Source of the DNA: Candidatus Aegiribacteria sp. MLS_C
Lineage (GTDB): Bacteria > Fermentibacterota > Fermentibacteria > Fermentibacterales > JCC-6
Length of the DNA: 64,000 nucleotides
Direction: 5' to 3'
Assembly (NCBI GenBank): GCA_002030045.1
Contig: LQBI01000024.1
Location: forward strand, 186,001 to 250,000
Below the pieces are notes generated by a model. It was not told the DNA's origin. It saw only the letters and a program-made list of their open reading frames with translations, and did not search any database. Within the stretch, counting starts at the first letter, position 1; each line of letters starts with the position of its first letter. The position numbers and the translations under genes are program-made. Positions 32,774 through 49,843 of this stretch are shown here, in pieces.

Positions 32774-32975
32774 AATCCATCAAAGGATTCCCGAATACCG
32801 GAACGAAACTCCCCAATCGAAAAGGCTCCCATGGGCATCAATGATAACCTGAACCCCTTGTTATGCTGCTGCGGCATAACATCGAGAATTCCGGTGTTAA
32901 CAAGCACAAGTGTATTGCCCTTGAACGTGTTATCGATATTGACTCGCATATATCAATGCTTTTATTCTCTGTCAG
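32774..32975. other. Boundary region between host-like sequence and the cassette array
   Basis: No gene. The sequence turns AT-rich. GTTATGC (32860-32866) and GCATAAC (32874-32880) form a perfect hairpin. With GATAACC (32843) and GTGTTAAC (32894) flanking it, this resembles a worn attC site, too degenerate to call. A second GTTATC lies near 32930. No attI site or integrase gene is visible. Confidence 0.4.
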
Positions 32976-33029
32976 CATAACCGGGCAACGGTGTTAACTT
33001 AACACGCTGCCGCATAATCATTGTTATGA
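32976..33029 (+). repeat. attC-like site 0, upstream of the methyltransferase cassette
   Basis: ATAAC (32977) and GTTAT (33023-33027) mark the ends. The centre is the hairpin GTGTTAA-C-TTAACAC, extended by GGCAACG against GCTGCC. The right arm carries about eight more bases than the left. The layout is that of an attC site, but the outer pairing is poor, so it may be degenerate or another recombination site. Confidence 0.45.
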
Positions 33030-33062
33030 AGAACCAGTTTGATTCTACCGGAAAGGACCATT

Positions 33063-34787
33063 ATGAAAAAACTCTACTATGGAGACAATCTGGATGTTCT
33101 CCGAAGAGAGATAGCTAGCAATTCTATTGATCTTATATACTTAGATCCACCTTTCAACTCTAAAAAATCCTACAATGTGTTATTCTCTGGACCTACCGGT
33201 GAAGCAAGAGCACAAATACAGGCGTTCGACGATACTTGGAAATGGACGCCAGAGACCGAGAGTATCTACATAGACATGCAAAACGGAAGCGTACCAGCAA
33301 GGGTTGCAGATGCGGCTCAAGCATTTCGCTCATTACTTGGTGAAAATGATGTTCTCGCATACTTAATAACAATGGCTCCAAGATTAGTTGAGCTGCATAG
33401 AGTACTAAAATCAGAAGGATCCCTCTTTCTACATTGTGATCCTGCAGCAAGCCACTATTTAAAAGTGCTACTGGATGCAGTATTTGGAGGGCGGCGATTC
33501 CGAAATGAAATCGTGTGGAAAAGAACTGGTGCCCATACAACCCCAAGAAGGTTCGAAACAATACATGATATATTGTTGTTTTATGCAAAGGGCGATAATG
33601 CATACTTTAATCCAATTAAAACACCTTACACTAAGGATCATGTTGATTCAAGATATACCGAAGACGAAAAAGGTAGGCTGAAATTCGTTACAGGCGGGAA
33701 CATCCTTTCAGGACCTGGTGCTACAAACGGCGACTCGGGCCAACCATGGAAAGGTTTTGATCCATCAAGCAAGGGTCGGCACTGGGCAGTACCAGGTTAT
33801 CTTGCAGAGCAGATGCCAGAGGGATTCTCTGAATTGTCGGTAAGAGAAAGACTGGATGCTCTCTATGATGCCGATCTAATTGAAATAAAGAAAGGAGCTG
33901 AATGGCCGCATCCGGTTAAATACCTTGCGGATGATGATGGTAAATTTCTATCAGATATCTGGGCATACCAACCAGGTACAGAAGGCGTACTATACGGTAC
34001 AGACCAAGGAATTGACGCAGATGTGCAATGGATCGGTCCAACAGATCCAGAAGATCTTGGATATCAGACTCAGAAACCGGAAGGTCTCTTGGATAGGATT
34101 ATTAGCTCAACATGCCCGCCTGAAGGGATTGTGCTTGATCCATTCTGTGGTTGTGGAACCACAATTGCTTCCGCACAAAGGCTTGGTCGGAATTGGATTG
34201 GGATTGATATCACCTACCTAGCTATTGATTTAATCGAGAAAAGACTCGTTGCCCAGTACGGTGATAACATATCCGATGAATACGAGATCTTTGGTATTCC
34301 GAGAGACATGGATGGAGCAATGACTCTCTTCAACTCAAATCCATTTGACTTTGAGAGATGGGCAGTTTCTATTGTAAATGGCCAGCCTAATGAAAAGCAA
34401 GTCGGTGATAGAGGTATAGATGGGATCGTGAGATTCCCACTTGATGTTGCTGGACGAAAGAGCGCGAAAGCAATTGTCTCTGTCAAAGGCGGAAAGTCAC
34501 TCAACCCAGGAATGGTTAGAGATCTAATGGGTACAGTAGATGCAACACAACAAGCAGAGATAGGTATTCTAATCTGCTTAGAAAATCCCACAAAAGGTAT
34601 GCTTGATGCTGCGGCAAGAGCTGGGGTCTACGAATGGCCCTTAACAAGAGAGCGTTATCCAAAGGCTCAAGTCATAACAATAGAAGAGTTACTAGATGGC
34701 AAAAGACCACATATGCCTCCAACATTGCTCCCATACATTAAGGCTCAGAAATTTGAAGATCCGAGTGGGCAGATGAAGTTGCTATAG
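33063..34787 (+). CDS. Cassette-borne DNA methyltransferase with Mrr-like C-terminal domain
   Basis: 574 residues. Motif IV (YLDPPF, residues 27-31) comes before motif I (DPFCGCGTT, near 360), the beta-class order of N6-adenine or N4-cytosine methyltransferases, including type III Mod-like enzymes. Residues ~415-560 (DRGIDGIVRF, AIVSVKGGKSLNPGMVRDLMGTVD, GILICLENPTKGM) resemble the Mrr-type restriction-endonuclease fold often fused to such enzymes; Ser stands in the usual Gln/Glu position before VK, so cleavage is uncertain. ATG 33063 has AAAGGA upstream. The gene fills one cassette of about 1.84 kb between sites 0 and A. AT-rich codon use differs sharply from flanking genes, indicating transfer. 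Confidence 0.88.
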   Translation: MKKLYYGDNLDVLRREIASNSIDLIYLDPPFNSKKSYNVLFSGPTGEARAQIQAFDDTWKWTPETESIYIDMQNGSVPARVADAAQAFRSLLGENDVLAYLITMAPRLVELHRVLKSEGSLFLHCDPAASHYLKVLLDAVFGGRRFRNEIVWKRTGAHTTPRRFETIHDILLFYAKGDNAYFNPIKTPYTKDHVDSRYTEDEKGRLKFVTGGNILSGPGATNGDSGQPWKGFDPSSKGRHWAVPGYLAEQMPEGFSELSVRERLDALYDADLIEIKKGAEWPHPVKYLADDDGKFLSDIWAYQPGTEGVLYGTDQGIDADVQWIGPTDPEDLGYQTQKPEGLLDRIISSTCPPEGIVLDPFCGCGTTIASAQRLGRNWIGIDITYLAIDLIEKRLVAQYGDNISDEYEIFGIPRDMDGAMTLFNSNPFDFERWAVSIVNGQPNEKQVGDRGIDGIVRFPLDVAGRKSAKAIVSVKGGKSLNPGMVRDLMGTVDATQQAEIGILICLENPTKGMLDAAARAGVYEWPLTRERYPKAQVITIEELLDGKRPHMPPTLLPYIKAQKFEDPSGQMKLL

Positions 34788-34791
34788 GAAT

Positions 34792-34868
34792 CATAACCAC
34801 AGCGTGAACCAGACGCCTGTAAGAGTTCGGGGTAAATGCTAACGGCGCTGGTTACGCTGATTGTTATC
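34792..34868 (+). repeat. attC site A
   Basis: The left arm ATAACCACAGCGTGAACCAG (34793-34812) pairs with the right arm CTGGTTACGCTGATTGTTAT (34848-34867): 12 paired positions with one extra C on the left, an unpaired spacer, then a 5-bp outer pair. Ends AAC/GTT and the extrahelical base are attC hallmarks. The predicted crossover is after the G at 34863. Confidence 0.85.
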
Positions 34869-34881
34869 TAGAAAGAAGACC

Positions 34882-35787
34882 ATGAATCAACTGCCACAGA
34901 TGCTTTGTCCCGAGTGCTTAAGACCCATGGAGAATAACGGAAGTACAGTAAAACCAACAGCAAAGTACAAAGACTGTATTCGAAAGTGTCAAGCCTGTGG
35001 TATTGGTTACTCGAATTCAGTAGCAAAACCTTCACTGATTTTCGAAGATCCTAGAAAGAACATTCCTGGTTTTGTGGACAGCTCAGATTTTCTCAAAATC
35101 CTGGAGAAATCCAATAACCGAAGGAATATCAGTAACAAGAAGTGCAAAGCGGGATTCTCAACATCAGAGGACGCAGTTACTTATACCTTCGTTAAATCCT
35201 TTTCTCAAGCTGATTCAATCGAGCGAATGATGAAAGTACTCGGACTTGAGATGAACAGCAACCATGTTGATTTGTTTCTATGGGGATGTCCTATTTCAAA
35301 AGGCACGGACATTACATTGATTAATAGGATGAATTCTTTGCTAAGTAATGAGTTTGCGGAGAGGGCAAATTCTCTCACAGAGCCAGACATTATTCTGAGC
35401 GTTGAGGGCTACGGTATTGTCATTATTGAAGTGAAGTTGCACAGTTCTAACGAAGTTAAAGCAACTGAAAAGTTAAGCAATTATCTGGATCGCAGCTTCT
35501 ATACTAATGTAGCAAAGGCAAAGTCCTCTCAGCATTATGAGCTAGTTAGAAACTGGTCAATTGGTAACGCCTTATCCGAGGGTTGCAACTTCACACTTAT
35601 CAATTTAGGCAAAGAATCATTGTTTACAGACCGAAATGCATCAAAGCTACAGCTGTTTAAGGAATCACTAAACTGTAATAAGAGGCGCCAGTTTGCTCAG
35701 GTATCCTGGGAAGAAATTCTGAACAGATTAGAAGAGAGGGATTCTCAGTTAAAAGAATATCTGAAGAGGAAAACAAAGTATAGATAA
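34882..35787 (+). CDS. Cassette-borne zinc-ribbon PD-(D/E)XK nuclease-like protein
   Basis: 301 residues. The N-terminus has a zinc-ribbon pattern (CPECLRPM and CQACGIGY). The centre contains TEPDIILSVEGYGIVIIEVKL, the P-D...E-x-K arrangement of the PD-(D/E)XK nuclease superfamily, preceded by a helix with a possible extra acidic residue (STSEDAVTYTF). It could be a restriction or repair nuclease; no known restriction enzyme was recognised. ATG 34882 follows AAAGAAG. It directly follows the methyltransferase cassette, so the two may act as a restriction-modification pair, which is an inference. The stop codon lies inside attC site B. Confidence 0.7.
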   Translation: MNQLPQMLCPECLRPMENNGSTVKPTAKYKDCIRKCQACGIGYSNSVAKPSLIFEDPRKNIPGFVDSSDFLKILEKSNNRRNISNKKCKAGFSTSEDAVTYTFVKSFSQADSIERMMKVLGLEMNSNHVDLFLWGCPISKGTDITLINRMNSLLSNEFAERANSLTEPDIILSVEGYGIVIIEVKLHSSNEVKATEKLSNYLDRSFYTNVAKAKSSQHYELVRNWSIGNALSEGCNFTLINLGKESLFTDRNASKLQLFKESLNCNKRRQFAQVSWEEILNRLEERDSQLKEYLKRKTKYR

Positions 35788-35858
35788 CCACAGCATGAAC
35801 CAGAAGCCTGCAAGGAAATGGGTAAGGTTAACGGCTCTGGTTACGCTGATTGTTGTGC
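35784..35858 (+). repeat. attC site B
   Basis: Nearly identical in arms to site A: ATAACCACAGCATGAACCAG (35784-35803) against CTGGTTACGCTGATTGTTGT (35837-35856), with the same extra base and spacer; the centre differs. It overlaps the stop codon of the nuclease-like gene. The predicted crossover is near 35853. Confidence 0.85.
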
Positions 35859-35897
35859 GTATAAATGCTATAGACACTTAACGCTAGTGGAGGAAGA

Positions 35898-36659
35898 ATG
35901 TCAGATGAAATGAAGGGGAAAGTGGCGCTGATTACCGGTGGTAGTTCTGGAATCGGTAAAGCAGCTGCCTTTGCGTTTGCCAACGAGGGAGCACAGGTAG
36001 TAATCGCCAGCAGATCAGAGGATACTGGAGAGAAAGCTGCCAGCGATATAAGACAATCCGGTGGAAATGCGAAATGGATTAGGGCAGACGTAACGCAGGA
36101 AGACCAAGTTAAGACATTGGTAACACTGATATTAGAGGAGTATGGCAGGCTTGATTATGCCTTCAATAACGCAGGATCAGGTGGAAAAGGCGGTTGGACT
36201 ACTGAGATAGAGGAAGAGGACTGGGATAAGACAATATCAGGCTTTCTGAAGAGTGTATGGCTGTGCATGAAACACGAACTACCAGCAATGCTTGATAACG
36301 GACAAGGTTCGATAGTGAATAATTCATCTGTAGACGGTAAACGAGGTTTCCGTTGGGACCCCGTTTACTCAGCTGCGAAGCATGGAGTGATTGGGTTAAC
36401 AAAATCATCTGCATTGCAGTATGCCCAGCAAGGAATCCGTATTAACGCAATCTGCCCTGGATGGATAATAACCCCTCCAGTTGAGAAGATACTAGAGCAT
36501 AATCCCGAAGCAGGGAATGGTATGCTTCTTCACCAGCCAATTGGAAGATTCGGTAAACCTGAGGAAGTAGCTCAGGCAGTTGTCTGGCTGTGTTCAGACA
36601 AGTCATCATTGATTACAGGCACAGTGCTTCCAATTGATGGAGGCTATCTAGCGATATAA
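35898..36659 (+). CDS. Cassette-borne short-chain dehydrogenase/reductase
   Basis: 253 residues, a classical SDR: the TGGSSGIG cofactor loop, NNAG, catalytic Ser in IVNNSSVDG, YSAAK (Tyr-Lys), and the PGWIITP tail. It oxidises or reduces an alcohol/ketone with NAD(P); the substrate is unknown. The ATG follows GGAGGAAG. It occupies one cassette (~0.88 kb) between sites B and C. A TATAAA immediately after site B (about 35860) might be a -10 element serving it. Confidence 0.9.
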   Translation: MSDEMKGKVALITGGSSGIGKAAAFAFANEGAQVVIASRSEDTGEKAASDIRQSGGNAKWIRADVTQEDQVKTLVTLILEEYGRLDYAFNNAGSGGKGGWTTEIEEEDWDKTISGFLKSVWLCMKHELPAMLDNGQGSIVNNSSVDGKRGFRWDPVYSAAKHGVIGLTKSSALQYAQQGIRINAICPGWIITPPVEKILEHNPEAGNGMLLHQPIGRFGKPEEVAQAVVWLCSDKSSLITGTVLPIDGGYLAI

Positions 36660-36667
36660 ACCGCACG

Positions 36668-36741
36668 GCAACAGAATGCAGCAGAACAGCGTTTGGGAGT
36701 TTAACCTGGGTTTTTGCAGTCTGCTGATTCAGAGCGTTCAA
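36668..36741 (+). repeat. attC site C
   Basis: The left arm AACAGAATGCAGCAGAACAG (from 36670) pairs with GCAGTCTGCTGATTCAGAGC plus GTT (ending 36738) through AGCAG/CTGCTG, ATGC/GAT and AAC/GTT, with extra bases on the left arm. The right arm is shared with sites D and E. Confidence 0.8.
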
Positions 36742-37140
36742 TAGAAAAGATAGAAGTCATATCAAACCGGACAGAGATTATCAAGGTAGATAATCATCAT
36801 TTTAATGATGATATTACAGTCGGTCTTTTCGACAATTTGCAATCCTTAAGCGAATCTCCGAAAATCAGGTATTCTAATGCTTTGCTGATGCATCAAAAGC
36901 AGACTAACCAATTCCGACTAATTGGGTACATTGTCCGAATATAGAAATAATAAAATAATTCACACACTCATGTAACTTGTTATTAAATTTTTAAAAGGTT
37001 ATCATTGTAGTATGTGTGAAGAGTTAATTCTTTCACTGTGAAATCAATCTGGGCTATGAAACAAGTCTAACTAACATCGTGTTACATCCTGTCAATAAGT
37101 TTACTTCTTTCGAGCTTATGATATTCGGAAGGAGAAAGTC
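36742..37140. other. AT-rich leader region of the FG-GAP cassette
   Basis: No convincing gene; a 76-codon frame (36714-36944) begins inside attC C with TTG and has no ribosome site. The palindrome ATCATCATT-TT-AATGATGAT lies at 36793-36812. A good promoter is at 36977-37005. The cassette thus carries its own expression signal. Confidence 0.5.
36977..37005 (+). promoter_or_regulatory. Cassette-internal promoter
   Basis: TTGTTA (36977-36982), a 17-base AT-rich spacer and TATCAT (37000-37005). The leader to the ATG at 37141 would be about 130 bases. Confidence 0.6.
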
Positions 37141-38994
37141 ATGTGTTCACGGGTTATTTTCCTTGCTACTTATCTGGTTATGTTCGCGCCCTTTGAAGTT
37201 TACGCAGGTACCGCAACCCAGACTGACTGGTCCGGCGGTGACGGAATCTTCGGACCGGTTATAGACTGGGGCAATGAGTTCTATTCTGATACAGACATTG
37301 AATGCTACAACAGTCCTTTCAATATTGTTCTCCAGAAAACAATGGCTCTGACTCCTCTGGAACATACCGTTTGCGGGGATTTCGTTATGCCTGCGGGAGT
37401 GTACTCTGCTGATGTCAACGGAGACGGCTATATGGATGTTCTCGGAGTATCCGTTGCTGCTAGTAATATTACCTGGTGGGAGAATCTGGATAGCTCGGGC
37501 ACAAGCTGGGCTGAACACATTGTTGATGGAGATTTCGATGGTGCCCGATCAGTGTATTCCGCTGATGTCAACGGAGACGGCTATATGGACGTCCTCGGAG
37601 CAGGCTGGACAGCCAACGACATCACCTGGTGGGAGAGTATTGACGGCTCGGGAACAAGCTGGACGGAACACATCGTAGATGGGGAATTCCATACCGCCGC
37701 CTCAGTGTATTCCGCTGATGTCAACGGAGACGGTTACATGGATGTCCTTGGAGCATCTTACAATGGCTCTTTGATCTCTTGGTGGGAGAATCTGGACGGT
37801 TCGGGTACCAGTTGGACGGAACATATTGTTGATGGGGCTATCAACAGTGCTATTTCAGTATGTGCTGCAGATGTCAACGGAGACGGCTACATGGATGTTC
37901 TCGGAGTTTCTCAAAATTCATCCTATGTTGCCTGGTGGGAGAATGTGGACGGCTCGGGCACAAGCTGGGCTGAACATACAGTTGACGCGTCTTTCGGGGG
38001 TGCCTATTGGGTATCCTTCGCGGATGTCAACGGGGACAGTTACATGGATGTTCTGGGAGCTGCCGCTGATGATGACGAAATCACCTGGTGGGAGAACGTT
38101 GACGGCTCGGGCACAAGCTGGATGGAACATATCGTAGATGATAATTTTGATTATGCCTCATCAGTATACTCCGTGGATGTCAACAGAGACGGCTACATGG
38201 ATGTCCTGGGCTCAGCTCAATATGCCAACGACATCACCTGGTGGGAGAACACTGACGGCTCGGGCACTAGCTGGACGGAACATACCGTAGATGGTGACTT
38301 CGGTGGTCCTTTCTCAGTGTTTTCCGCTGATATCAACGGAGACGGCTGGCTGGATGTCCTCGGAGCTGCATATCTTGATAACGACATAACCTGGTGGGAT
38401 CTGACCGAATATCTCCCTGATGGTTCGCTTGAATCCAGCGTGCTAAATGTACAGGAAAGCCCAGACTGGCAGACAATTGACTGGACCTGTACCGAGCCTG
38501 CCGGGACAAGTGTTGCTGTGCAGGTGAGGGCTTCGAACAATTCTTCCAGCATGGGAGCCTGGTCGGATACACTTACAGCTCCCTGTACCCTGGAAGGAAT
38601 CCTGTCCGACGAAGACAACTATTTCCAGTACAGACTCATACTGAGCACCACCGATTCGTTTCTTTCTCCCGTGCTTCACGATGTAGCTGTAGGCTGGGAG
38701 CCGTTCACCGGAACGCATGAAGGATCCCGGGTAGAGGTTTCCACATACTCTCTATACGGCGCGCAGCCAAATCCGGCACTGGGTCATGCAACGCTGGTCT
38801 TTTCGCTGCCTGTTGATTCAAAAGCTGAACTGACAGTATACGACCTGACCGGGCGAGTGGTTTACTCCATTAATGGTGTGTACAGTACAGGCGTGCACGA
38901 GGTGATACTCGAAGGTCTTGCAAGTGGTGTGTACATGGCCCTTATGACCTCGGAAGAATTTGTGGCAACGCTCCAATTCGTTGTGATCGATTAG
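37141..38994 (+). CDS. Cassette-borne FG-GAP repeat protein with T9SS-type sorting domain
   Basis: 617 residues. A signal peptide (MCSRVIFLATYLVMFAPFEVYA) is followed, from about residue 88, by seven 51-residue FG-GAP units (SADVNGDGYMDVLG, ITWWENxDGSGTSW, EHIVDG), i.e. a seven-bladed beta-propeller with Ca-binding DxNxDG loops. A beta domain follows, then the last ~85 residues (AQPNPALGHATLVFSLP, LTVYDLTGRVVYS, LASGVYMALM), a classic type IX secretion sorting domain. It should be exported by the host T9SS and displayed on the surface, perhaps for adhesion. GGAGAAAG precedes the ATG. It occupies a ~2.5-kb cassette between sites C and D. Confidence 0.88.
   Translation: MCSRVIFLATYLVMFAPFEVYAGTATQTDWSGGDGIFGPVIDWGNEFYSDTDIECYNSPFNIVLQKTMALTPLEHTVCGDFVMPAGVYSADVNGDGYMDVLGVSVAASNITWWENLDSSGTSWAEHIVDGDFDGARSVYSADVNGDGYMDVLGAGWTANDITWWESIDGSGTSWTEHIVDGEFHTAASVYSADVNGDGYMDVLGASYNGSLISWWENLDGSGTSWTEHIVDGAINSAISVCAADVNGDGYMDVLGVSQNSSYVAWWENVDGSGTSWAEHTVDASFGGAYWVSFADVNGDSYMDVLGAAADDDEITWWENVDGSGTSWMEHIVDDNFDYASSVYSVDVNRDGYMDVLGSAQYANDITWWENTDGSGTSWTEHTVDGDFGGPFSVFSADINGDGWLDVLGAAYLDNDITWWDLTEYLPDGSLESSVLNVQESPDWQTIDWTCTEPAGTSVAVQVRASNNSSSMGAWSDTLTAPCTLEGILSDEDNYFQYRLILSTTDSFLSPVLHDVAVGWEPFTGTHEGSRVEVSTYSLYGAQPNPALGHATLVFSLPVDSKAELTVYDLTGRVVYSINGVYSTGVHEVILEGLASGVYMALMTSEEFVATLQFVVID
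37399..38400 (+). repeat. Seven tandem 153-bp repeats inside the FG-GAP gene
   Basis: The block GAT(G/A)TCAACGGAGACGG or close variants recurs at 37411, 37564, 37717, 37870, 38023, 38176 and 38329, always exactly 153 bases apart. Units differ by substitutions but not by indels, so the array expanded by unequal exchange and has been kept in frame. Confidence 0.9.
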
Positions 38995-39144
38995 CACCGG
39001 CGATCCCGTAGAGTTCAACGAGCTTCACACTCTTCTGGCCTCAACTGCCAACTGGGAAAGCTTGTTAGCATTTTAAACGCAATGAAGTGAAGCTATAGAA
39101 CATTTGCAGTATGCACATCTGGAGTATTACTTTGCGGATAAAAT
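38995..39144. other. Spacer after the FG-GAP gene
   Basis: Contains no gene. It is the 3' tail of the cassette before attC D. Confidence 0.5.
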
Positions 39145-39222
39145 TGAACAAGCAAATGCAGCAGAACTGCGTCAGAACTATTGAAACTCAGGTTTTTGCA
39201 GTCTGCTGATTTAAGCGTTCAG
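39145..39222 (+). repeat. attC site D
   Basis: The left arm AACAAGCAAATGCAGCAGAA (39147-39166) continuing CTGCG pairs with TTGCAGTCTGCTGATTTAAG continuing CGTT (to 39219). CTGCTG, ATTT, GCAGT and GTT/AAC all pair, with single extra bases on the left arm only, as in attC sites. It is closely similar to sites C and E. Confidence 0.85.
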
Positions 39223-39494
39223 TCGACCGCAGTCGGAAAAGAAATAAACGGAAAATGAATATGAAAACGCTGCAGGAAAAGATAAACAAGTATGCGGAAA
39301 GCGGTCGACTGAATGGGCCGCGTATTACCACACGCTAGTTCATCCGCCTGCGGCGTCTGAACAAGCGTATGCAGCAGTCATTGAATCCGAACAAAATGAA
39401 AGCAAGGCTTATACCTCCGCCGCCGGGAAACTCATCCCGGCTCAATTGCTGATCTTTTGCTTGTGGATCCATGTTTTTCTAGTCGTTGAATGAT
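39223..39494. other. Region between attC D and hicB with a degenerate attC-like palindrome
   Basis: A 27-codon frame at 39255-39338 (MNMKTLQEKINKYAESGRLN...) may be a truncated cassette gene. From 39358 to 39467 ACAAGC pairs with GCTTGT, and CAGCA(GTC)ATTG with CAATTGCTG, around an inner CCGGGA/TCCCGG hairpin. This has the layout of a larger, worn attC without a proper GTT end. Confidence 0.4.
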
Positions 39495-39854
39495 CTAGGC
39501 TTTCTCGTTCTTTTCGTAGTGAACCCGTGCGTCTCGCAGAAGATGTACACAATGGGTATTAAGGCTTTCTCCATGGCGCAGGGCGTCTATGGTAAGTTCT
39601 TTGTGTAGATCCTTGCCGACTCGAAGAACAAACTTGCCCGAGTAATCTTTGCCAGCGGTTTCAGCAGGAAGGGTTGCACCGTCTTGCCCGTATATCTCGA
39701 TCCACTCTTCTACTACCTGGCAGAGTTCGCGATATACCTTAGCTTCATCGTCTCCATGAACACCTCCAAGCATAAGCCCGGGACATGTGCCGATGTAGCA
39801 ATGATCTTCTTCCGACCACTCGACAATCTTGAGATATCGGTCACTCGTTTTCAT
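39495..39854 (-). CDS. hicB: HicB-family antitoxin
   Basis: 119 residues. The N-terminal domain (YLKIVEWSEEDHCYIGTCPGLMLGGVHGD) is the HicB partial RNase H-like fold. The C-terminal part (FVLRVGKDLHKELTIDALRHGESLNTHCVHLL) is a ribbon-helix-helix-type DNA-binding domain like those of HicB/Arc. It should neutralise HicA and repress the operon. The start overlaps the hicA stop by four bases. The module lies on the minus strand, against the direction of most cassette genes, as is common for toxin-antitoxin cassettes. Confidence 0.88.
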   Translation of the reverse strand: MKTSDRYLKIVEWSEEDHCYIGTCPGLMLGGVHGDDEAKVYRELCQVVEEWIEIYGQDGATLPAETAGKDYSGKFVLRVGKDLHKELTIDALRHGESLNTHCVHLLRDARVHYEKNEKA

Positions 39855-40045
39855 TCCATCACCTCGCGGATTGCTTTCTCTACCTCGCGCTCCTGATACT
39901 TCTTTGCGTCCTGCGAAAGGTAACCGCTTATTGTTATCTTCGCTCCCTTGGGGTGAGTGAAGTTTCGATGGCTACCTTTTCCGCCGCGGTTTATAAAACC
40001 CGCATTCTTCAGGTCGCGAATCAACTCTCTTACTTTCCTCGGCAT
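39851..40045 (-). CDS. hicA: HicA-family mRNA interferase toxin
   Basis: 64 residues, the normal HicA size, with a dsRBD-like fold: VRELIRDLKNAGF, then the catalytic-His segment GGKGSHRNFTHPKGAKITISG. HicA cleaves mRNA independently of ribosomes and is held in check by HicB. The ATG (40043-40045) has no ribosome site and lies about 7 bases from a -10 element, so the mRNA may be leaderless. Confidence 0.88.
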   Translation of the reverse strand: MPRKVRELIRDLKNAGFINRGGKGSHRNFTHPKGAKITISGYLSQDAKKYQEREVEKAIREVME

Positions 40046-40051
40046 ATCTAT

Positions 40052-40081
40052 ATAGTACTACAATGATACTACAAATGTCAA
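40052..40081 (-). promoter_or_regulatory. hicAB promoter with direct-repeat operator
   Basis: On the minus strand a perfect TTGACA (40076-40081), an 18-base spacer and TACTAT (40052-40057). Inside the spacer the octamer TTGTAGTA occurs twice, three bases apart, a likely HicB operator. Transcription would begin at or within a base or two of the hicA ATG. Confidence 0.65.
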
Positions 40082-40305
40082 TGGATCAGCCTAAGACAGA
40101 GCTGTATTCAGCAATCATCAGATCCTTTGGCAATACAACCCCTGCGAAGATTACAGGCATAAACGAGTATACCGAACAGAACCGAACATACCGAACCAAT
40201 CCAAGCATATCCGCCCGCGAAAGTGTTCATCCAGAGATATTGTGTATTGAAATCGGGCTGATTATCATCAATCCAACTGGCTGGGAGTATAACCAGATCC
40301 CGAAC
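40082..40305. other. Spacer upstream of hicA
   Basis: No gene with support in either direction. It is the upstream side of the hicAB promoter and the tail of the cassette before attC E. Confidence 0.45.
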
Positions 40306-40384
40306 ACAACAACAAAATGCAGTAGAACTGCGCAGCGGTGCCTGAAGGTTATGCTTTTGCAGTCTACTGATTTTGAGTGTTAAA
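40306..40384 (+). repeat. attC site E
   Basis: The left arm AACAACAAAATGCAGTAGAA (40308-40327) continuing CTGCG pairs with TTGCAGTCTACTGATTTTGA continuing GTGTT (to 40381): GCAGT, CTACTG, ATTTTG and GTT pair, with extra bases on the left only. A compensatory change relative to sites C and D (CTACTG/CAGTAG instead of CTGCTG/CAGCAG) shows that the pairing is maintained by selection. Confidence 0.88.
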
Positions 40385-40396
40385 AAGCCAAGTAAT

Positions 40397-40474
40397 TTGC
40401 CAATCATTGTAGGGGCTATTTTGTTCCTGATTGGTTTTATTATCGTATTACTAAACTATATCGTAGGAGGGTAA
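40397..40474 (+). CDS. Possible single-span membrane peptide
   Basis: A TTG-initiated frame of 25 residues, PIIVGAILFLIGFIIVLLNY then IVGG, is one continuous hydrophobic helix. An alternative TTG at 40373 would add SVKKPSNL but lies inside attC E, upstream of the crossover. There is no good ribosome site. Its 3' end contains the GGAGGG ribosome site of the next gene, so it may act as a coupling leader. Low certainty. Confidence 0.35.
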   Translation: MPIIVGAILFLIGFIIVLLNYIVGG

Positions 40475-40477
40475 CAA

Positions 40478-40750
40478 ATGGAATCGATACAAGAGGTGCA
40501 TCTGTTCATTGAAGGTGGTGGAGATCAGAGACTTGTTAATGAGATTATTCAAGCACTACACCCTGAATTTCTTAGGATACCTGGCCTGAGAATACACAAG
40601 CATGATGTTGCAAATTGGCCAGAGGAGCCTTTTGTCTATGCAGCAATCAGTTTGAAGACACAACACGGAATCAAGTTGACGACATCCAATTGCCTCACAC
40701 AAGATGGATCAGCGTACGGAAAGAAATTGTACCTGATTATGGTCAGATAG
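40478..40750 (+). CDS. Cassette-borne small protein, unknown
   Basis: 90 residues, not recognised. It has an acidic-aromatic N-terminus (MESIQEVHLFIEGGGDQRLVNEIIQALHP) and later polar strands (AAISLKTQHGIKLTTSNC). A strong GGAGGG ribosome site supports translation. It lies in a short cassette between sites E and F. The N-terminal half is compatible with a small alpha/beta fold, but no function is proposed. Confidence 0.65.
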   Translation: MESIQEVHLFIEGGGDQRLVNEIIQALHPEFLRIPGLRIHKHDVANWPEEPFVYAAISLKTQHGIKLTTSNCLTQDGSAYGKKLYLIMVR

Positions 40751-40765
40751 TAGGTTGCCATAACC

Positions 40766-40841
40766 AGGGACAACCCTGCCTTACACTCGGTCGGGAACTC
40801 CGCTGCGCTCCTTTCCCGCCGGTGAAGGCAACATTAAGTAG
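40766..40841 (+). repeat. attC-like site F, degenerate end
   Basis: GCCTTACACTCGG(T)CGGGAA pairs with TTCCCGCCGGTGAAGGC over most positions, with an extra T on the left and a central CTCCGCTGCGCTCC loop also found in site G. The expected GTT at the right end reads ATT (ATTAAGT), so the site may be inactive. Confidence 0.6.
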
Positions 40842-40875
40842 AAGAATATGGATGAAGGAACAAAATACAGAGTGA

Positions 40876-41407
40876 TTACTCAAGGTTTGGCACAAAGTCA
40901 CAGAGATATGTGACCAGAATCGGGAAGAGGTCTTCATGACGATGATTATACCTGAACTCCTGTTCCTTCAGGTAGAGCGGGAAATTTTTGTGTGAGACAC
41001 CATGATGCTTTATAAGACGCTCCTTGGCAAAACTCCAGAACCCTTCGAGACCGTTGATGTAGACACGCCCCCGGGAGAACTCCTTTCCGTGGTCAACCTT
41101 GAGATGCCTGTAACCGCAGAACATCAGGCTGTCATATATCTGGAAGCGATCGTTGTATACAATGCTTCCCCGGCGGACCTTCTTCAAAGTCAGACCGAGC
41201 ACGGTCTCGGCCCTGACAGCAGGCTCCGTTCTGCTCACAGTCCTCGCGGAATTCGTATTCGAACTGTTCCAGAGCATCATCGTTGGAATCGTGGCTTATC
41301 CTGCCGAAACCCAGTGCACCCTCTGCTAACACGACGAAGTCTTCGCCCCAGTGGTGGAGTATGGGAACTGTCCGGAGGTGCTTGGGCGCCTCCGGTCTCC
41401 ACCTCAC
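40876..41407 (-). pseudogene. Decayed ISXO2/IS1595-like transposase
   Basis: The C-terminal part is clear: VLGLTLKKVRRGSIVYNDRF, YRHLKVDHGKEF and NGLEGFWSFAKERLIKHHG followed by FRYNHR, the ISXO2-type DDE/N transposase core. The upstream part (AEGALGFGRISHDSNDDALEQ) sits in a different frame, and the N-terminal zinc-ribbon domain is missing, so the gene is broken by at least one frameshift and truncated. No terminal inverted repeats were found. It begins about 35 bases after attC-like site F. Confidence 0.75.
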
Positions 41408-41796
41408 CTGCTGAAGACAGGACTATCGCAGATGATAGAAGAAGAACAACAACCGGTCGCTTCATTTCCATTGAGGACTCCTCGACGGTCGACCGTCATG
41501 CTGACAGATGCTGACCTCCCCTTTGGGAATGGCCCGTTCAGGCTTCCCCGATCCGCAATCCGGAATTTATTGAGCACCCGCGGGATTGCCATCTTTCCCG
41601 GCGACTCAGCTCCTTTGCCGAATGATAACCGAGCGGTTTCGACCGGTCAGAGAGAAGTGGACCGTCAAGGCGCACACAGTGATCCTGCCGCATCGCGCCG
41701 GAGGCCGGTGAGGTATGTGCGGTTATCGTATTGTCCGGGGCTTCTGCCACCGCCCCGACCGGATGCACCCGCAGGACGGATTCCGGGAAATACCCG
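41408..41796. other. 389-bp region without a recognised gene
   Basis: Open frames here show no family features or ribosome sites. A perfect 14-bp palindrome GACGGTCGACCGTC lies at 41484-41497. GC content rises back to the host level toward the transporter gene, so the first array segment probably ends near here. Confidence 0.45.
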
Positions 41797-42798
41797 TTAG
41801 AAACTGCTCAGGGCTATGCTGAGCCAGAGGGGCAGCGTCAGGAGGGCTGCGAGGTGGACCGCCAGCTGCAGCCCTGAGACCAGTTTCCACCTGCCTCCGT
41901 ACCTTCTCGCGACAAGCGCGTGGTTCGTGGCGGGAGGAGCCGCGGCGACCAGTACCAGGATCGTGGCAGCAAGCGGTTCTACCGGAAGGTTCCTCAGCAC
42001 CGCATACACCGCCAGGGGGACCGCGATGAGCCTTATCAGGACAAGTGGTACCGTGTACCTGGAGGGTATCCCGCGAATGCTCCCGGCTCCAGCGATCATG
42101 CCGCCCAGTATGATCATTGCCATGGGCGAGAGCATTCGGCTCACGAACTCCAGTACGGACATGATCGTCTCAACGGGAGCCATGCCTCCCTGGATCCCCC
42201 TCGCCGATTCACGCACCCCCGGTATGAAACTGATGAGGATACCAGCGAAGAACGAGACTATGGGGGGATTGAATATCCGTTTCAGCCTCTCTGCCGCGGT
42301 CAGGTCGGCTGACCTTCCGAGCAGCTTCACACCCGCGGTCCACATTATCGCGATGGACGGTAGTGAGACCATTGAGATGTACATGACGGCCTGATCGTGC
42401 ATGTGCCCTGGAGTCACGGCCAGGATGACGGGCAGCGGTAGATAGAGACTGTTGGATATCATCATCATGGCCACCACCGACCGGTCGGCCTGCGGGTCTC
42501 CTCCGGGCAGGATCCTGTAGAGCATCGTCCCCGCCGCCCAGGAGAGGACTATCCAGGCGGTGGAGAAGAGAACGAGCACGAGCCCCTCCTCCAGTATCTC
42601 CAGTGAGAAGGATCGGGCCATGGCCAGCACGAAGGTGCAGGGGATCACCACGTCGATCAGGAACCTCACCAGATCCGAGAGGGTGTCTTCACGGATCCAT
42701 TTCCGCCGGACCATCAGGAACCCCAGCAGCACCAGGAGCGCCATCTGCCCTATCACGTCGATTGATGTGTACAGACCCTGAAGGAATGATTCCGACAT
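41797..42798 (-). CDS. AEC (auxin efflux carrier) family transporter
   Basis: 333 residues, about ten transmembrane helices, with AEC features: VIGQMALLVLLGFLMVRRKWI at the N-terminus, FLIDVVIPCTFVLAM, a central MMISNSLYLPLPVI and AAAPPATNHALVARRYGG in place of the usual final Asn/Pro-rich motif. AEC carriers move organic acids or similar anions across the inner membrane. Codon use is host-like, unlike the cassettes on either side, so it may be an original chromosomal gene caught between two cassette clusters. GGGTG precedes the ATG. Confidence 0.85.
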   Translation of the reverse strand: MSESFLQGLYTSIDVIGQMALLVLLGFLMVRRKWIREDTLSDLVRFLIDVVIPCTFVLAMARSFSLEILEEGLVLVLFSTAWIVLSWAAGTMLYRILPGGDPQADRSVVAMMMISNSLYLPLPVILAVTPGHMHDQAVMYISMVSLPSIAIMWTAGVKLLGRSADLTAAERLKRIFNPPIVSFFAGILISFIPGVRESARGIQGGMAPVETIMSVLEFVSRMLSPMAMIILGGMIAGAGSIRGIPSRYTVPLVLIRLIAVPLAVYAVLRNLPVEPLAATILVLVAAAPPATNHALVARRYGGRWKLVSGLQLAVHLAALLTLPLWLSIALSSF

Positions 42799-43242
42799 CT
42801 TACACCCGTTCAGCTTTGTTCATTTGGCCTGAACTCTCCCTGTAAGGAACTCCGGGTTTCTCGCCGGGATACCGGTGGATCCGACATTGCCCTCCTCCAG
42901 GACGCCGTTCCATACGCGATCCGGCAATGACCGGCTGATGGCATCACCACCTCGGCCGCACTGAAGAGAAATGCCTTCGGAAGCGACGCTGGTCCTGAGG
43001 ACCAGTGCATACTAACAGGGTAGCGGCGTCAAGACCAGCGGCGACCTGACCTGTTGAGCCGTGACCTTCCAGGCTCCTTCCTGTTCGAAGTAATCTGGAT
43101 AGCCTAATCAAGGGGTTGGATTCCGGGAATTCTAATTGTCGCCAAGCGGGAGTATTAAGTGTCGCTGATCACTTGTCATCCAGCAAAGGGCCAGCATATA
43201 TCTGGAAGAAGGTGTTAAGGACCAGGTAGCGCTAACGACTGG
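42799..43242. other. Intergenic region upstream of attC H
   Basis: No gene seen. CTAACAGG (about 43010) and CCTGTTGAG (about 43050) form a loose palindrome, and a GTGTTAAGG lies near 43211; both could be worn recombination sites but are too weak to call. Confidence 0.4.
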
Positions 43243-43299
43243 ACTAACCTGATACAGCCGCTCCGGGACGGGTCTCGGTAATGCCTGTGCAGGTTATTC
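43243..43299 (+). repeat. attC-like site H
   Basis: CTAACCTGATACAG (43244-43257) pairs with CTGTGCAGGTTAT (43285-43297): TAACCTG/CAGGTTA and ACAG/CTGT with an unpaired spacer of two against one bases. It has AAC/GTT ends and is 57 bp long. It ends 28 bases before the permease start. Confidence 0.65.
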
Positions 43300-43326
43300 G
43301 GAGCGTCAGGCGGATTGAGAAGAAGA

Positions 43327-45159
43327 ATGACTGCACAGCAATGGATCATACTGGGAATCCTTACCGTAACGATGGCCTTGTTCATCTGGAATCGCTGGCG
43401 GTACGATGTAGTGTCGCTGATGGCACTGCTGGTGGTCACTGTTACTGGAATCGTTCCGCCCGATGAGGTTTTTTCGGGGTTTGGCCATCCGGCGGTTATC
43501 ACCGTTGTGGCGGTGCTTGTGGTGAGCAAGGCGCTGTTCAATGCCGGCGTGATTGATCTGATCGCGCGTCAACTGGGACGGGTCGGCGACCGGCCGACGG
43601 TTCAGGTGGCGGCCCTGACGGGACTGGTGACGGTGTTTTCGGGGTTTATGAACAATGTCGGGGCGCTTGCGCTGCTGATGCCGGTGGCGACCTGGATGTC
43701 GCGCAATAGCGGTCGCTCACCGTCGCTGCTGCTGATGCCGCTGGCCTTCGGGTCGCTCTTGGGCGGGATGCTGACACTGATCGGGACACCGCCCAATATG
43801 ATTATCGCTGCGTATCGAGCCAATGTTGCCGAGACGCAGTTCGGGATGTTCGATTTTTTGCCGGTTGGCGTCAGCGTCGCCTTTGTCGGGGTGGTCTTCA
43901 TCGCGCTGGTCGGCTGGCGGCTGATTCCCAAAAAACAGGATAGTGTCGCATCCGGGGAGCTGTTTGAGGTCAGCGAATATATCAGCGAGTTGCGCGTTCC
44001 CGAAGAATCCAAGTTTGTCGGGTTTCCGCTGCACGATCTGCTCTCGGTGATGCCGAACAAGGAGGATATTACGATTGTCGGTCTGGTGCGTAACGACAAG
44101 CGTTTTTTGGCGCCGTCGATGTATCGCGTCCTCAGAGCCGACGACATCCTGATGGTCGAGACTGATTCGGACAGCCTCAAGAATTTGATCGACGACGGCG
44201 GGCTGGAGTTCATCGAGGGCGACAAGAACGATGAAAAAGACGAAGAAGGGGAAGAAGAAGAAGAGGACGAAAAAGAAAAACCCGACAAGTCGATTGAATC
44301 CGACGACGTCAGTGTTCTCGAGGCCATTGTCGCACCCGAATCGCTGCTGATCGGGAAGACCGCCTCCAGTCTGTTACTGCGTGAACGTTACGGGGTCAAC
44401 GTCATCGCCGTCGCCCGTCGCGGAAAGCGTCTTCAGGAACGACTGGGGCGCATTCGATTCCAGGTCGCAGACATACTGCTGCTTCAGGGCGGGGCCAATT
44501 CGCTGCCGTCCACGTTATCGGAGTTGGGCTGTTTGCCCCTGGCCGAGCGCGGACTGCGCATCGGAAAGCCGCGCAAGGTGCTGCTGCCGGTCGGCATTTT
44601 CGCGGTTGCGATGACGCTGGTGGCGATAAATGTGCTGCCCGCCCAGATCTCCCTGACCTGTGCGGCGGTGGTGATGATCGTTGCCGGGCTGCTGTCGCCG
44701 ACCGACGCGTACAAAAGTATTGACTGGCCGGTGGTGGTGCTGCTGGGGGCGATGATTCCCATCGGTAACGCCTTTGAAACCACCGGCAGCGCGGACTTGA
44801 TCGCCAGTCAGCTGCACGGCATCGCACAGGCCGCCACGCCGGCGGCGATGCTGGCGATCCTGATGGTAGGAACGATGCTGTTGAGCAATATTGTCAACAA
44901 TGCAGCGGCGGCTATTCTGATGGCACCGATTGCCGCCGGCCTGTCCCACGCCATCGGCGCCAATGCAGACCCGTTTTTGATGTGTGTGGCGGTCGGCGCT
45001 TCCTGTGCGTTTCTGACGCCCATCGGCCACCAGTCCAACGCGATGGTCATGGCGCCGGGCGGGTACAGGTTCAGCGACTACTGGCGAATGGGTCTGCCCG
45101 TCTCCGTTCTGGTGGTGGTCGTGGGTGTCCCGACGATTCTTCTGTTCTGGCCCTTATAG
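43327..45159 (+). CDS. SLC13-family permease with two RCK_C (TrkA_C) domains
   Basis: 610 residues. Two membrane halves carry the SLC13/ArsB-like signatures FMNNVGALALLMPVA, GTPPNMIIAAYR, LLSNIVNNAAAAILMAP and TPIGHQSNAMVM. Between them are two RCK_C domains (FVGFPLHDLL and LIGKTASSLLLRERYGV) joined by a highly acidic linker near residue 300 (KDEEGEEEEEDEKEK). Such proteins carry dicarboxylates, sulfate or similar anions with Na+. The start is ATG 43327, with a TTG alternative at 43315. Flanked by attC-like sites H and I it is probably a cassette. Its codon choice (CGC, GTC, TTT) differs from host genes, suggesting another donor. Confidence 0.88.
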   Translation: MTAQQWIILGILTVTMALFIWNRWRYDVVSLMALLVVTVTGIVPPDEVFSGFGHPAVITVVAVLVVSKALFNAGVIDLIARQLGRVGDRPTVQVAALTGLVTVFSGFMNNVGALALLMPVATWMSRNSGRSPSLLLMPLAFGSLLGGMLTLIGTPPNMIIAAYRANVAETQFGMFDFLPVGVSVAFVGVVFIALVGWRLIPKKQDSVASGELFEVSEYISELRVPEESKFVGFPLHDLLSVMPNKEDITIVGLVRNDKRFLAPSMYRVLRADDILMVETDSDSLKNLIDDGGLEFIEGDKNDEKDEEGEEEEEDEKEKPDKSIESDDVSVLEAIVAPESLLIGKTASSLLLRERYGVNVIAVARRGKRLQERLGRIRFQVADILLLQGGANSLPSTLSELGCLPLAERGLRIGKPRKVLLPVGIFAVAMTLVAINVLPAQISLTCAAVVMIVAGLLSPTDAYKSIDWPVVVLLGAMIPIGNAFETTGSADLIASQLHGIAQAATPAAMLAILMVGTMLLSNIVNNAAAAILMAPIAAGLSHAIGANADPFLMCVAVGASCAFLTPIGHQSNAMVMAPGGYRFSDYWRMGLPVSVLVVVVGVPTILLFWPL

Positions 45160-45198
45160 CCGTGTGTCTGTTGAACAATGATTCAGAAGGACCGCCCG

Positions 45199-45253
45199 AT
45201 AGCAGCATGAAGCGGACGGCGCCAGGCGCCGCCGCTGATGCTGAGCGTTGACG
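45199..45253 (+). repeat. attC-like site I
   Basis: CAGCATGAAGCGGACGGCGCC (from 45203; one unit longer than shown pairs fully) folds on GGCGCCGCCGCTGATGCTG (45225-45243), with extra bases only on the left arm, followed by AGCGTTGAC. The GCTGAT...AGCGTT right arm matches sites C and D. The outer left end is not clear. Confidence 0.6.
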
Positions 45254-46297
45254 AGATGGAAACGGCGGGTCAGGTCCGAATCAGTGTGAGATTCATGAGC
45301 CTTTTCCGGAACGGGATCGGGGACATCCTCGGATGATGTCTTCGATTCCATCCAGTCCCAGTACTCCTCCATATCGAAGTATTCTCTGCCTTCCGTCCAA
45401 GCAACGTCCTGTTCGACCAGCAGCGCTCCGATAAACCCGAACGCCGATGCCTGATTGGGAAAAATCCTGATTGCTCTCTCCCTCCTGCGGATCTCCTGGT
45501 TCAATCTCTCAATTGAATTAGTCGTTCTGAGTCTCTTGCGGTACTTCTCCGGAAGAGCCATGACCGCAGGAGCATCATCAAGGCGCTCTTCGAGTTTCGA
45601 TACAGCCTTCGGCGCTGTTATTCCAAACCTGTCGAAAACATCACCGGCAAGCTCCCTGGCCGTCTCCTCGTCCGGAGCATCGAAGACAGGGCGTATCCTG
45701 TTCTTGAGCTCCTTCTTACGACGCTTGGGCGCGCTGTCCAGAATGTTCTTCATCAGGTGTGTCTGACAAGCCGCCAGCTGCTTCCGGGCAGCTGACTCCT
45801 TATGGCTTTTACAAGGCCTGCGTGGTTGTCTGACACAACAGGGTCCGCTCCGCTGAGACTTCTGCCGACAAGCCACCTCAGGAACTCCTCCCAGGATACC
45901 TCGCTCTTCGGGAACTCCATCCCCCGCATCTCCTCAACGACCTCCTCACCCTGAGGGTGCTTACCCCGTTGATCACCATCTCGATAATGGCCAGCAGGAA
46001 GGCCTGCTCGCTGCGCTGAAGCCTGCAGAACGTCTCCGTATCGAACTGGCCGTCACGAAGCCGTGGCACCTGCAGCTCCAGCCTGCCGAACCCGGTCTTG
46101 ATAAACCTCGACCGGTAACCACTCCTGTAGGCCGTTAGGCTCTCAGAACGCTTGTGCTTCACAGCCCCGACCTGTTAAGCCGCCTGCTGGTCAAGGACCT
46201 GATTGGCCACCTTCTCCATCAGCCGGCCGACTCCTTCGTCGGAACTGAACAGGCCTTGCACATCTTCCGAATCAAGTGTAATGTTGTATTGGGTCAT
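45254..46297 (-). pseudogene. Decayed IS256-family (Mutator-type) transposase
   Basis: Starts at ATG 46295-46297 with MTQYNITLDSEDVQGLFSSD, is interrupted by an in-frame TAA at 46175-46177, and continues in the same frame with YRSGYRSRFIKTGFGRLELQ and VPRLRDGQFDTETF. The catalytic segment PVVSDNHAGLVKAI follows in another frame, and the C-terminal part (CQTHLMKNILD, KRLRTTNSIERLNQEIRRR) in yet another. At least one nonsense mutation and two frameshifts make it inactive. No clear terminal inverted repeats were seen. It lies inside the cassette region between sites I and G. Confidence 0.8.
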
Positions 46298-46467
46298 CGG
46301 ACATCCCTTCCTAGTTGGTAGAACAAAGTAGGAGCAATAAGGGATTAGGGTGACCCATTCCTCCTTCCTGGGCAACCCCGGGGAAAGTGCACACCATATC
46401 GGATACAACCTTGGCGGCATCATTCTTCATGATTTTCAATGCATTGTTCTCAAAACAATGAAGGGGT
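46298..46467. other. Spacer with a small inverted repeat
   Basis: CATTGTT-CTCAA-AACAATG (46442-46460) is a 7-bp hairpin near the IS256 remnant, possibly an IS end or the start of a cassette tail. No gene is seen. Confidence 0.4.
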
Positions 46468-46541
46468 CTGACAACCGCATCGACTCGGACAGGCAATTCC
46501 GCTGCGCTCCATTTCCAGACGGTTATGCGAAGCGTTGTCTT
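46468..46541 (+). repeat. attC-like site G, right end of the array
   Basis: GACAAC-CGCAT (from 46470) pairs with ATGCG-AAGC-GTTGTC (to 46539). The centre, TTCCGCTGCGCTCC, is shared with site F. The right arm has four extra bases. Host-like sequence resumes about 100 bases further. Confidence 0.6.
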
Positions 46542-46646
46542 CAGAAAGGAATACTAGCATATAGCGTTATGCGTTATCGCACGTACTCATGATACGCAGC
46601 TTCAAGTGCCGGGAAACCGAACAACTATTCAATCGGGAAAGACCTG

Positions 46647-47609
46647 TCAGAGGAACTTGTCCCTGAGCTTCTCCAGCATGTCGGCTGTCATCGAGTCCAG
46701 GTCCCATTCAGGCTTCCAGCCCCACTCTTCGCGTGCGGCGCTGTCGTCCACGCTCATGGGCCAGGTGTCGGCGATGGCCTGGCGGTAGTCCGGCTCGTAA
46801 TCCACGCTGAAACCGGGTATGTGCTTCCTTATGCTGCCGGCTATGTCGCCTGCGGTTACCGACAGGGCTCCAACGTTGAAGTCGCTGTGGTGAACCAGTG
46901 AGCCGAAATCCGCCTCTGCAAGGTCCAGGGTGGCCTTGATGCAGTCGGGCATGTACATCATGGGGAGCATGGTGTCTTCCCTGACGAAACAGGTGTAGCG
47001 TCCCTCCTGGACCGCCTTGTAGTAGATGTCCACCGCGTAGTCAGTGGTGCCTCCGCCGGGAAGCGTCTCCGAGGAGATGATGCCGGGGTACCGGAGCCCT
47101 CTGACGTCGAGGCCGTACTTCCTGACGTAGTAGTCGCAGACCAGCTCCCCGGATACCTTGGTTACCCCGTACATGGTCTTGGGGCGGAGCACGGTCTCCT
47201 GCGGAGTATCCTTCCTGGGTGTCTCCGGTCCGAAGGCTGCTATCGAACTGGGTATTATGACCCTGCTTATTTCGTGCTTCCGGGCGGCTTCCAGAACGTT
47301 GATGGTACCGTCCATGTTGACCTTCCAGCAGAGCTGGGGGTTCTGCTCACCGGTGGCGGAGAGTATCGCGGCCATGTGGAATACGGCGTCGATGTCCAGT
47401 TCGATGACGGTTTTCTCCACCGCATCGGCGTCCGTGACATCCAGCAGTGTCCAGGGCCCCCCCTCCATCACAGTGCTGTCCTTAACCGTCTTGATGTCGG
47501 AAGCTATAACGTTGTCCCTGCCGTAGCGGTCTCGGAGTTCAGCAGTCAGTTCCGAGCCTATCTGGCCCAGGGCGCCGGTAACCAGTATCCTCTTGAAGTC
47601 CTTGGTCAT
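46647..47609 (-). CDS. SDR-type L-threonine 3-dehydrogenase-like NAD-dependent epimerase/dehydratase
   Basis: 320 residues of the extended SDR (epimerase) type: cofactor loop VTGALGQIGSELTAEL, VFHMAAILSATGE, active-site Ser in IIPSSIAAFG and YGVTK (Tyr-Lys), then RYPGIISSETLPGGGTTDYA, typical of SDR-type threonine dehydrogenases. It would oxidise L-threonine to 2-amino-3-ketobutyrate with NAD. The kbl gene at 54833 supplies the next step, supporting this assignment over a sugar epimerase. GAAAGG precedes the ATG. First host-like gene after the array. Confidence 0.8.
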   Translation of the reverse strand: MTKDFKRILVTGALGQIGSELTAELRDRYGRDNVIASDIKTVKDSTVMEGGPWTLLDVTDADAVEKTVIELDIDAVFHMAAILSATGEQNPQLCWKVNMDGTINVLEAARKHEISRVIIPSSIAAFGPETPRKDTPQETVLRPKTMYGVTKVSGELVCDYYVRKYGLDVRGLRYPGIISSETLPGGGTTDYAVDIYYKAVQEGRYTCFVREDTMLPMMYMPDCIKATLDLAEADFGSLVHHSDFNVGALSVTAGDIAGSIRKHIPGFSVDYEPDYRQAIADTWPMSVDDSAAREEWGWKPEWDLDSMTADMLEKLRDKFL

Positions 47610-49737: not shown

Positions 49738-49754
49738 AGACTGTGGGAAGCGTA

Positions 49755-49831
49755 TGCGAAGGGGTGCCCCGAAGGAGGGCTGAGAACAGACCCTAGGAAC
49801 CTGATCTGGTTAGCACCAGCGGAGGGAGAAC
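49755..49831 (+). promoter_or_regulatory. TPP riboswitch (THI element)
   Basis: Contains the conserved blocks GGGGTGCC, GGCTGAGA, ACCCT, GAACCTGATCTGGTTAG and CACCAGCGGAGGGA in the correct order. It binds thiamine pyrophosphate and would lower thiC expression when thiamine is plentiful. There is no clear T-run before thiC, and the AAAGGA ribosome site lies 10-15 bases downstream, so translational control is likelier than termination. Confidence 0.93.
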
Positions 49832-49843
49832 GGAAAAAGGACG

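Follow-up and report, generated by a model that had tools for sequence, protein, structure and literature searches.

The window analysed here is a stretch of 64,000 nucleotides (64 kb) from Candidatus Aegiribacteria sp. MLS_C (G000:C24:186001-250000), whose 2.98 Mb genome is assembled in 35 contigs and is 97.65% complete. An earlier note, made from the letters alone, had assigned the DNA to an FCB-like candidate phylum, which is refined here to Fermentibacterota, genus Candidatus Aegiribacteria; Candidatus Sabulitectum is another genus of the same family. Within the window, two ordinary host genes are separated by a large insertion (Table 1). The left host gene ends at 32773, and the right one, which encodes an epimerase, spans 46647-47609. 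Nineteen genomes of the genus were searched for this gene pair, and in eight of them (G007, G008, G010, G013, G014, G016, G020 and G021) the two genes lie on one contig, 34-129 bp apart. These species-level empty sites are the comparison for the insertion at 32774-46640. Because the flanking genes are directly adjacent in eight congeners, the 13.9 kb is taken to have been gained here; loss of the same 13.9 kb in all eight is less likely. The same intergenic spot holds 5.2 kb in G012 and 2 kb in G011, in both cases without attC sites. The G012 segment consists of FG-GAP and other secreted-protein genes; two genes are seen there (G012:C8, L182:1539-6361), one for an FG-GAP/type IX tail protein and one for a 988 aa protein. 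This spot, filled both in the window and in G012, may be prone to insertion. A search against Rfam gave no match inside the array; a TPP riboswitch is found at 49750-49846 on the + strand.

Table 1. Features of the insertion and its leader, in window positions; cassette borders are set with the junction taken as falling between G and TT.
Feature	Position	Strand	Remarks
Whole insertion	32774-46640		Between two ordinary host genes; 13.9 kb
Leader segment	32903-32998	+	96 bp, 100% identical to contig C31 (L050:9344-9439)
attI-like core ATAATCATTGTTA	33014-33026	+	Cassette junction (G, TT) after 33023; directly 5′ of cassette 1
Cassette 1	33024-34863	+	N6/N4 DNA methyltransferase with C-terminal nuclease-like domain; ORF 33063-34787
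attC site B	34791-34869	+	R1 E 5.4e-8; R2 E 1.8e-6; bottom-strand fold z -4.4
Cassette 2	34864-35852	+	Restriction-endonuclease-like; ORF 34882-35787; Pfam REase-ARP E 5e-6, just below cut-off
attC site C	35782-35858	+	R1 E 5.9e-6; R2 E 0.015; fold z -1.7
Cassette 3	35853-36736	+	Short-chain dehydrogenase; ORF 35898-36659
attC site D	36663-36742 (R1 match 36669-36736)	+	R1 E 1.3e-7; R2 E 0.0014; fold z -0.7
Cassette 4	36737-39217	+	FG-GAP repeat protein with type IX secretion sorting tail; ORF 37141-38994
attC site E	39143-39223	+	R1 E 3.9e-11; R2 E 3.3e-6; fold z -2.2
Cassette 5	39218-40379	+	Reversed toxin-antitoxin pair: HicA 39851-40045 (-), HicB 39495-39854 (-)
attC site F	40304-40385	+	R1 E 7.4e-9; R2 E 1.8e-6; fold z -2.6
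Cassette 6	40380-~40838	+	90 aa protein, family unknown; ORF 40478-40750; ends in hairpin 40765-40838
Degenerate attC-like hairpin	40765-40838	+	ATT replaces GTT; called on fold (z -2.7) and sequence
IS1595-family transposase remnant	40876-41407	-	ORF pieces
AEC-type membrane transporter	41797-42798	-	60% GC
Probable degenerate attC	43230-43311	+	GTC replaces GTT; R1 E 9e-4; R2 E 1
CitMHS/TrkA-C transporter gene, possible cassette	43315-45159	+	
IS256-family transposase remnant	45154-46423	-	ORF pieces
Candidate degenerate GC-rich attC	45197-45253	+	R2 E 0.09 (45205-45246); fold z -4.6
Candidate last attC	46466-46540	+	R1 E 0.15; R2 E 0.11; fold z about 0

The left part of the insertion is a series of six cassettes. 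The earlier note had described single-gene units of 0.5-2.5 kb; the units do carry a single gene or a gene pair, and their size is 0.9-2.5 kb. Its statement that they lie mostly in one orientation is corrected for the HicAB pair, which stands on the - strand. Cassette GC content is 40-48%, a foreign composition against the mean of 60.0% outside (sd 2.1%, 1 kb windows), so that the AT-richness claimed for the array holds here, but not in its right half. Searches of the 41 other phylum genomes gave no homologue of the cassette 1 methyltransferase at E <= 1e-40, nor of the products of cassettes 2 and 6 at the thresholds used. With PADLOC, cassette 1 matched methyltransferases alone, and the remaining cassettes had no match. 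The cassette 6 protein has a 56% identical paralogue at G000:C9:13471-13731, its sole relative found in the phylum.

An attC covariance search had been proposed for these palindromes, and an equivalent check was made with models trained on IntI-linked sites, which score the array. The first model, R1, was built from an alignment of 15 AAC...GTT sites that lie beside IntI genes of congeners and includes no window sequence. In this alignment 94.2% of cells are paired, and covariation is 0.494, compared with 0.166 in shuffled alignments and about 0 when the alignment is slid. The second, R2, was trained on 51 R1-recognised sites beside IntI, all from other phyla, 44 of which lie on the strand opposite IntI. 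In canonical integrons attC sites are mostly found on the strand opposite IntI. Run on the window with filters off, R1 gives six matches below E 0.001, all on the + strand: five strong sites (B to F) and a weaker one at 43230. R2 recovers the same five at E 1.8e-6 to 0.015 and, over 64 kb on both strands, finds nothing else at E <= 1 except three weak sites (45205 and 46466 at about 0.1, 43230 at 1), all of them within the insert and on the + strand. The hairpin at 40765-40838 is scored by neither model.

The five strong sites stand just 3′ of cassette genes, at distances of 1.0 kb from B to C, 0.9 kb from C to D, 2.5 kb from D to E and 1.2 kb from E to F. The sequence does show the features given in the earlier note: AAC...GTT at the ends, arms of two paired blocks each, and extra bases confined to the left arm. 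Sites B, C, E and F combine these ends and blocks with extrahelical left-arm bases and a variable centre; in site D the left spacer is shortened. When folded, the bottom strands of B, E and F show bulges of one base, confined to one side; the folds of C and D are less distinct. The sharing of arms between sites with differing centres is likewise borne out, as is the compensatory change, which lies at 40304 (site F), where CAGCAG/CTGCTG has become CAGTAG/CTACTG; covariation in these columns is also seen in relatives. The sequence of site B is close to that of an attC of the G012:C169 array, which adjoins an intI gene. The nine to eleven sites of the earlier note come down to five strong ones, one intermediate (43230) and a further two or three that are weak (45205, 46466 and 40765-40838). 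The sites at 43230, 45205 and 46466 are probably degenerate attCs, and in all five to nine attCs are supported in the array.

Imperfect, intergenic palindromes are also what dispersed REP/BIME-type repeats would look like, and such a distribution had been named in advance as grounds for giving up the integron interpretation. The genome-wide distribution of R1 matches refutes it, leaving repeats unrelated to integrons with a vanishingly small probability. Across all 2.98 Mb, R1 has no more than 11 matches at E <= 1, and these are clustered instead of dispersed: this array accounts for six and two further cassette spots for three, so that nine fall at three cassette spots. In addition, the IntI-linked sites of congeners match the same model, and the extra bases occur on one arm only. 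The identity of the array's units as integron cassettes is close to certain.

No integrase was found with them. Neither the curated IntI model nor an alignment built from IntIs of the phylum has a match in the window, beside the array included, in agreement with the earlier note. The search for IntI was extended to the whole genome, as had been suggested: with the curated model the best tyrosine recombinase reaches 86 bits, where the cut-off is 265, and the phylum alignment finds no better match. The genome's own tyrosine recombinases are Xer-like and lack the IntI-specific insertion domain. The best reading of the locus, supported by the five sites that both models score and by the missing IntI, is the one originally proposed, an integron cassette array without an integrase (CALIN). 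Contig C18 starts inside or near another cassette run (L049:760-2200), with attC sites at 760 and 2117; given this run and an assembly in 35 contigs, an intI gene may lie in an assembly gap. The C18 run carries a family 2 glycosyltransferase gene between its two attCs.

The 5′ edge of the array bears on its origin. The leftmost palindrome, site A (32976-33027), had been counted as an attC, and a clear attI had been reported absent. Both statements are probably wrong. Site A is scored on the + strand by neither R1 nor R2, and the region holds the core ATAATCATTGTTA directly 5′ of cassette 1. With up to one mismatch allowed, this is the only match to the core in 64 kb, where 0.05 would be expected. 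Eleven congener intI loci with enough upstream sequence contain the core AATMATTGTT 421-456 nt before the IntI domain, where it marks the start of the first cassette, and the same core is seen in three more Fermentibacterota loci (L054, L055 and L056). The window core matches the attI of G008 at 14 of 14 bases. Outside the 13 bp core the similarity of the leader to congeneric attI regions is not clear (nhmmer E 0.3), and a Blast comparison of the leader with the sequences upstream of intI matched the core alone. A TTGAC motif at 32939 lies 77 nt 5′ of the core, a distance of 69-71 nt in most congeners.

The leader is duplicated in the genome. Its copy on contig C31 is followed by a BrnT/BrnA cassette with an attC (L050:10072-10153, E 4.6e-9). 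The left host gene's 3′ end is repeated there as well, about 95% identical, and the sequence in between is poorly conserved. The C31 copy and the window part ways at GTGTTAAC (32998), upstream of the core, a break that a simple attI model does not account for. The site A region is nevertheless probably an attI remnant, a call that draws on the core, on its position and on the duplicated leader, a leader otherwise not recognisably homologous to attI regions. It is rather improbable that leader and core make up a stand-alone docking site, duplicated in the window and on C31 without intI, and, jointly with this, that the site received its cassettes through trans-acting integrases of other elements. 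If true, docking sites and integrases would be separate modules in Fermentibacterota.

In the literature CALINs are traced to off-target insertion, to loss of intI or to rearrangement (PMC8618304). Off-target insertion would mean that an IntI elsewhere, formerly present or lying in an unassembled gap, put the cassettes at a non-attI site, and that the array never owned intI or attI. It agrees with the lack of an intI remnant adjoining the array and with C31, a single cassette behind an identical leader, as scattered insertions might give. Off-target insertion is nevertheless unlikely: the 13 bp attI core sits precisely at the 5′ boundary of cassette 1, and this, like the row of six cassettes, is better accounted for by an attI-driven origin.

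The right half of the insertion (40837-46640) has a GC content of 53-60%, richer than the cassettes, and weak sites lie between its genes. With its degenerate attCs and IS fragments it looks like an older, decayed part of the array. The IS1595 and IS256 remnants could also suggest that a fragment of a larger integron was moved in by transposition or homologous recombination, minus its intI end, and the left-junction copy on C31, which takes in the left host gene's 3′ end, indicates that a rearrangement took place. Yet the IS remnants lie within the decayed right half instead of at both edges, and the left edge is an attI-like core, not an IS end. A transferred fragment is an unlikely explanation.

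The presence of an attI-like core at the array edge favours loss of intI, and the insert is probably a chromosomal integron remnant from which this gene has disappeared. The cassettes would have entered singly at an attI at 33014-33026, by attI x attC recombination carried out by an IntI of the kind still present in congeners. The intI gene, whose place would be immediately left of attI on the - strand, would then have been lost. Such an array would probably take up and release cassettes only with an IntI acting in trans, and a candidate leader promoter (TTGAC at 32939) may drive expression of the first ones.

CALINs are defined in IntegronFinder by a minimum of two attC sites lying no more than 4 kb apart and have a mean of almost 6 attC sites each (PMC9024848). 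They are about as frequent in RefSeq as complete integrons, although draft genomes overstate their number (PMC9024848). The array shares with published CALINs its clustered attCs less than 4 kb apart, its one-gene or toxin-antitoxin cassettes and the lack of an adjoining intI. It differs in its host phylum, in the probable attI remnant at its 5′ edge and in the empty sites of congeners. The complete integron of a congener, G012:C169 (L037), has the same attC arm families, an attC very close to site B and the attI core, but its intI gene is divergent to at least 11 attCs, whereas the window has no intI. Integrons and CALINs of archaeal metagenome-assembled genomes (PMC9668308) are likewise mostly CALINs from uncultured lineages; they belong to another domain of life, and the activity of archaeal attC sites was tested by experiment. 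Another comparison is offered by the Delta-attI-type cassettes of mobile integrons (PMC12901181), in which pieces of attI are found away from intI, like the leader copy on C31. Recombination is proven at those mobile-integron sites, whereas here it is inferred only.

CALINs as such are already known, and the new part is the host phylum. Fermentibacterota is absent from the 14 integron-bearing phyla listed in a 2021 review (PMC8618304). A literature search, outside which most subscription papers fell, found no published integron report for Fermentibacterota, which leaves novelty unproven. Among 42 Fermentibacterota genomes, 21 have an IntI over the curated cut-off (NCBIfam TIGR02249), and arrays of AAC...GTT palindromes lie upstream of the phylum's intI genes on the opposite strand. 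R1 finds attC matches at E <= 0.001 in 36 of the 42, with 1 to 42 in each; the median is 12 sites in genomes with IntI (E <= 1e-40) and 2 in those without. Several genomes, the source genome included, have attC sites and no IntI that could be found. These uncultured bacteria thus form a sizeable cassette reservoir. One genus offers empty and filled sites, a probable attI remnant and complete integrons, in which the origin of CALINs by intI loss or by off-target insertion can be tested.

Most IntIs of the phylum have an N-terminal extension of about 90-100 aa with the motif WQIRQALDAV before the SAM-like domain (L037:12582-13835, L036:6831-8186 and others). A Pfam scan of L037 gave no domain for this extension; the long form is also found in Nitrospirota, Desulfobacterota, Kiritimatiellota and others. 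A near-palindrome, GTRTACATATGTTTAC, is conserved 5′ of intI in six loci (L035, L036, L037, L041, L044 and L048) and may be a SOS/LexA-type operator. A second, shorter IntI type (~345 aa, >470 bits) is encoded in G029:C113 and G032:C126 (L029 and L030). Its nearest attC lies downstream on the same strand as intI, unlike in the other loci, and the G029 copy contains an internal stop.
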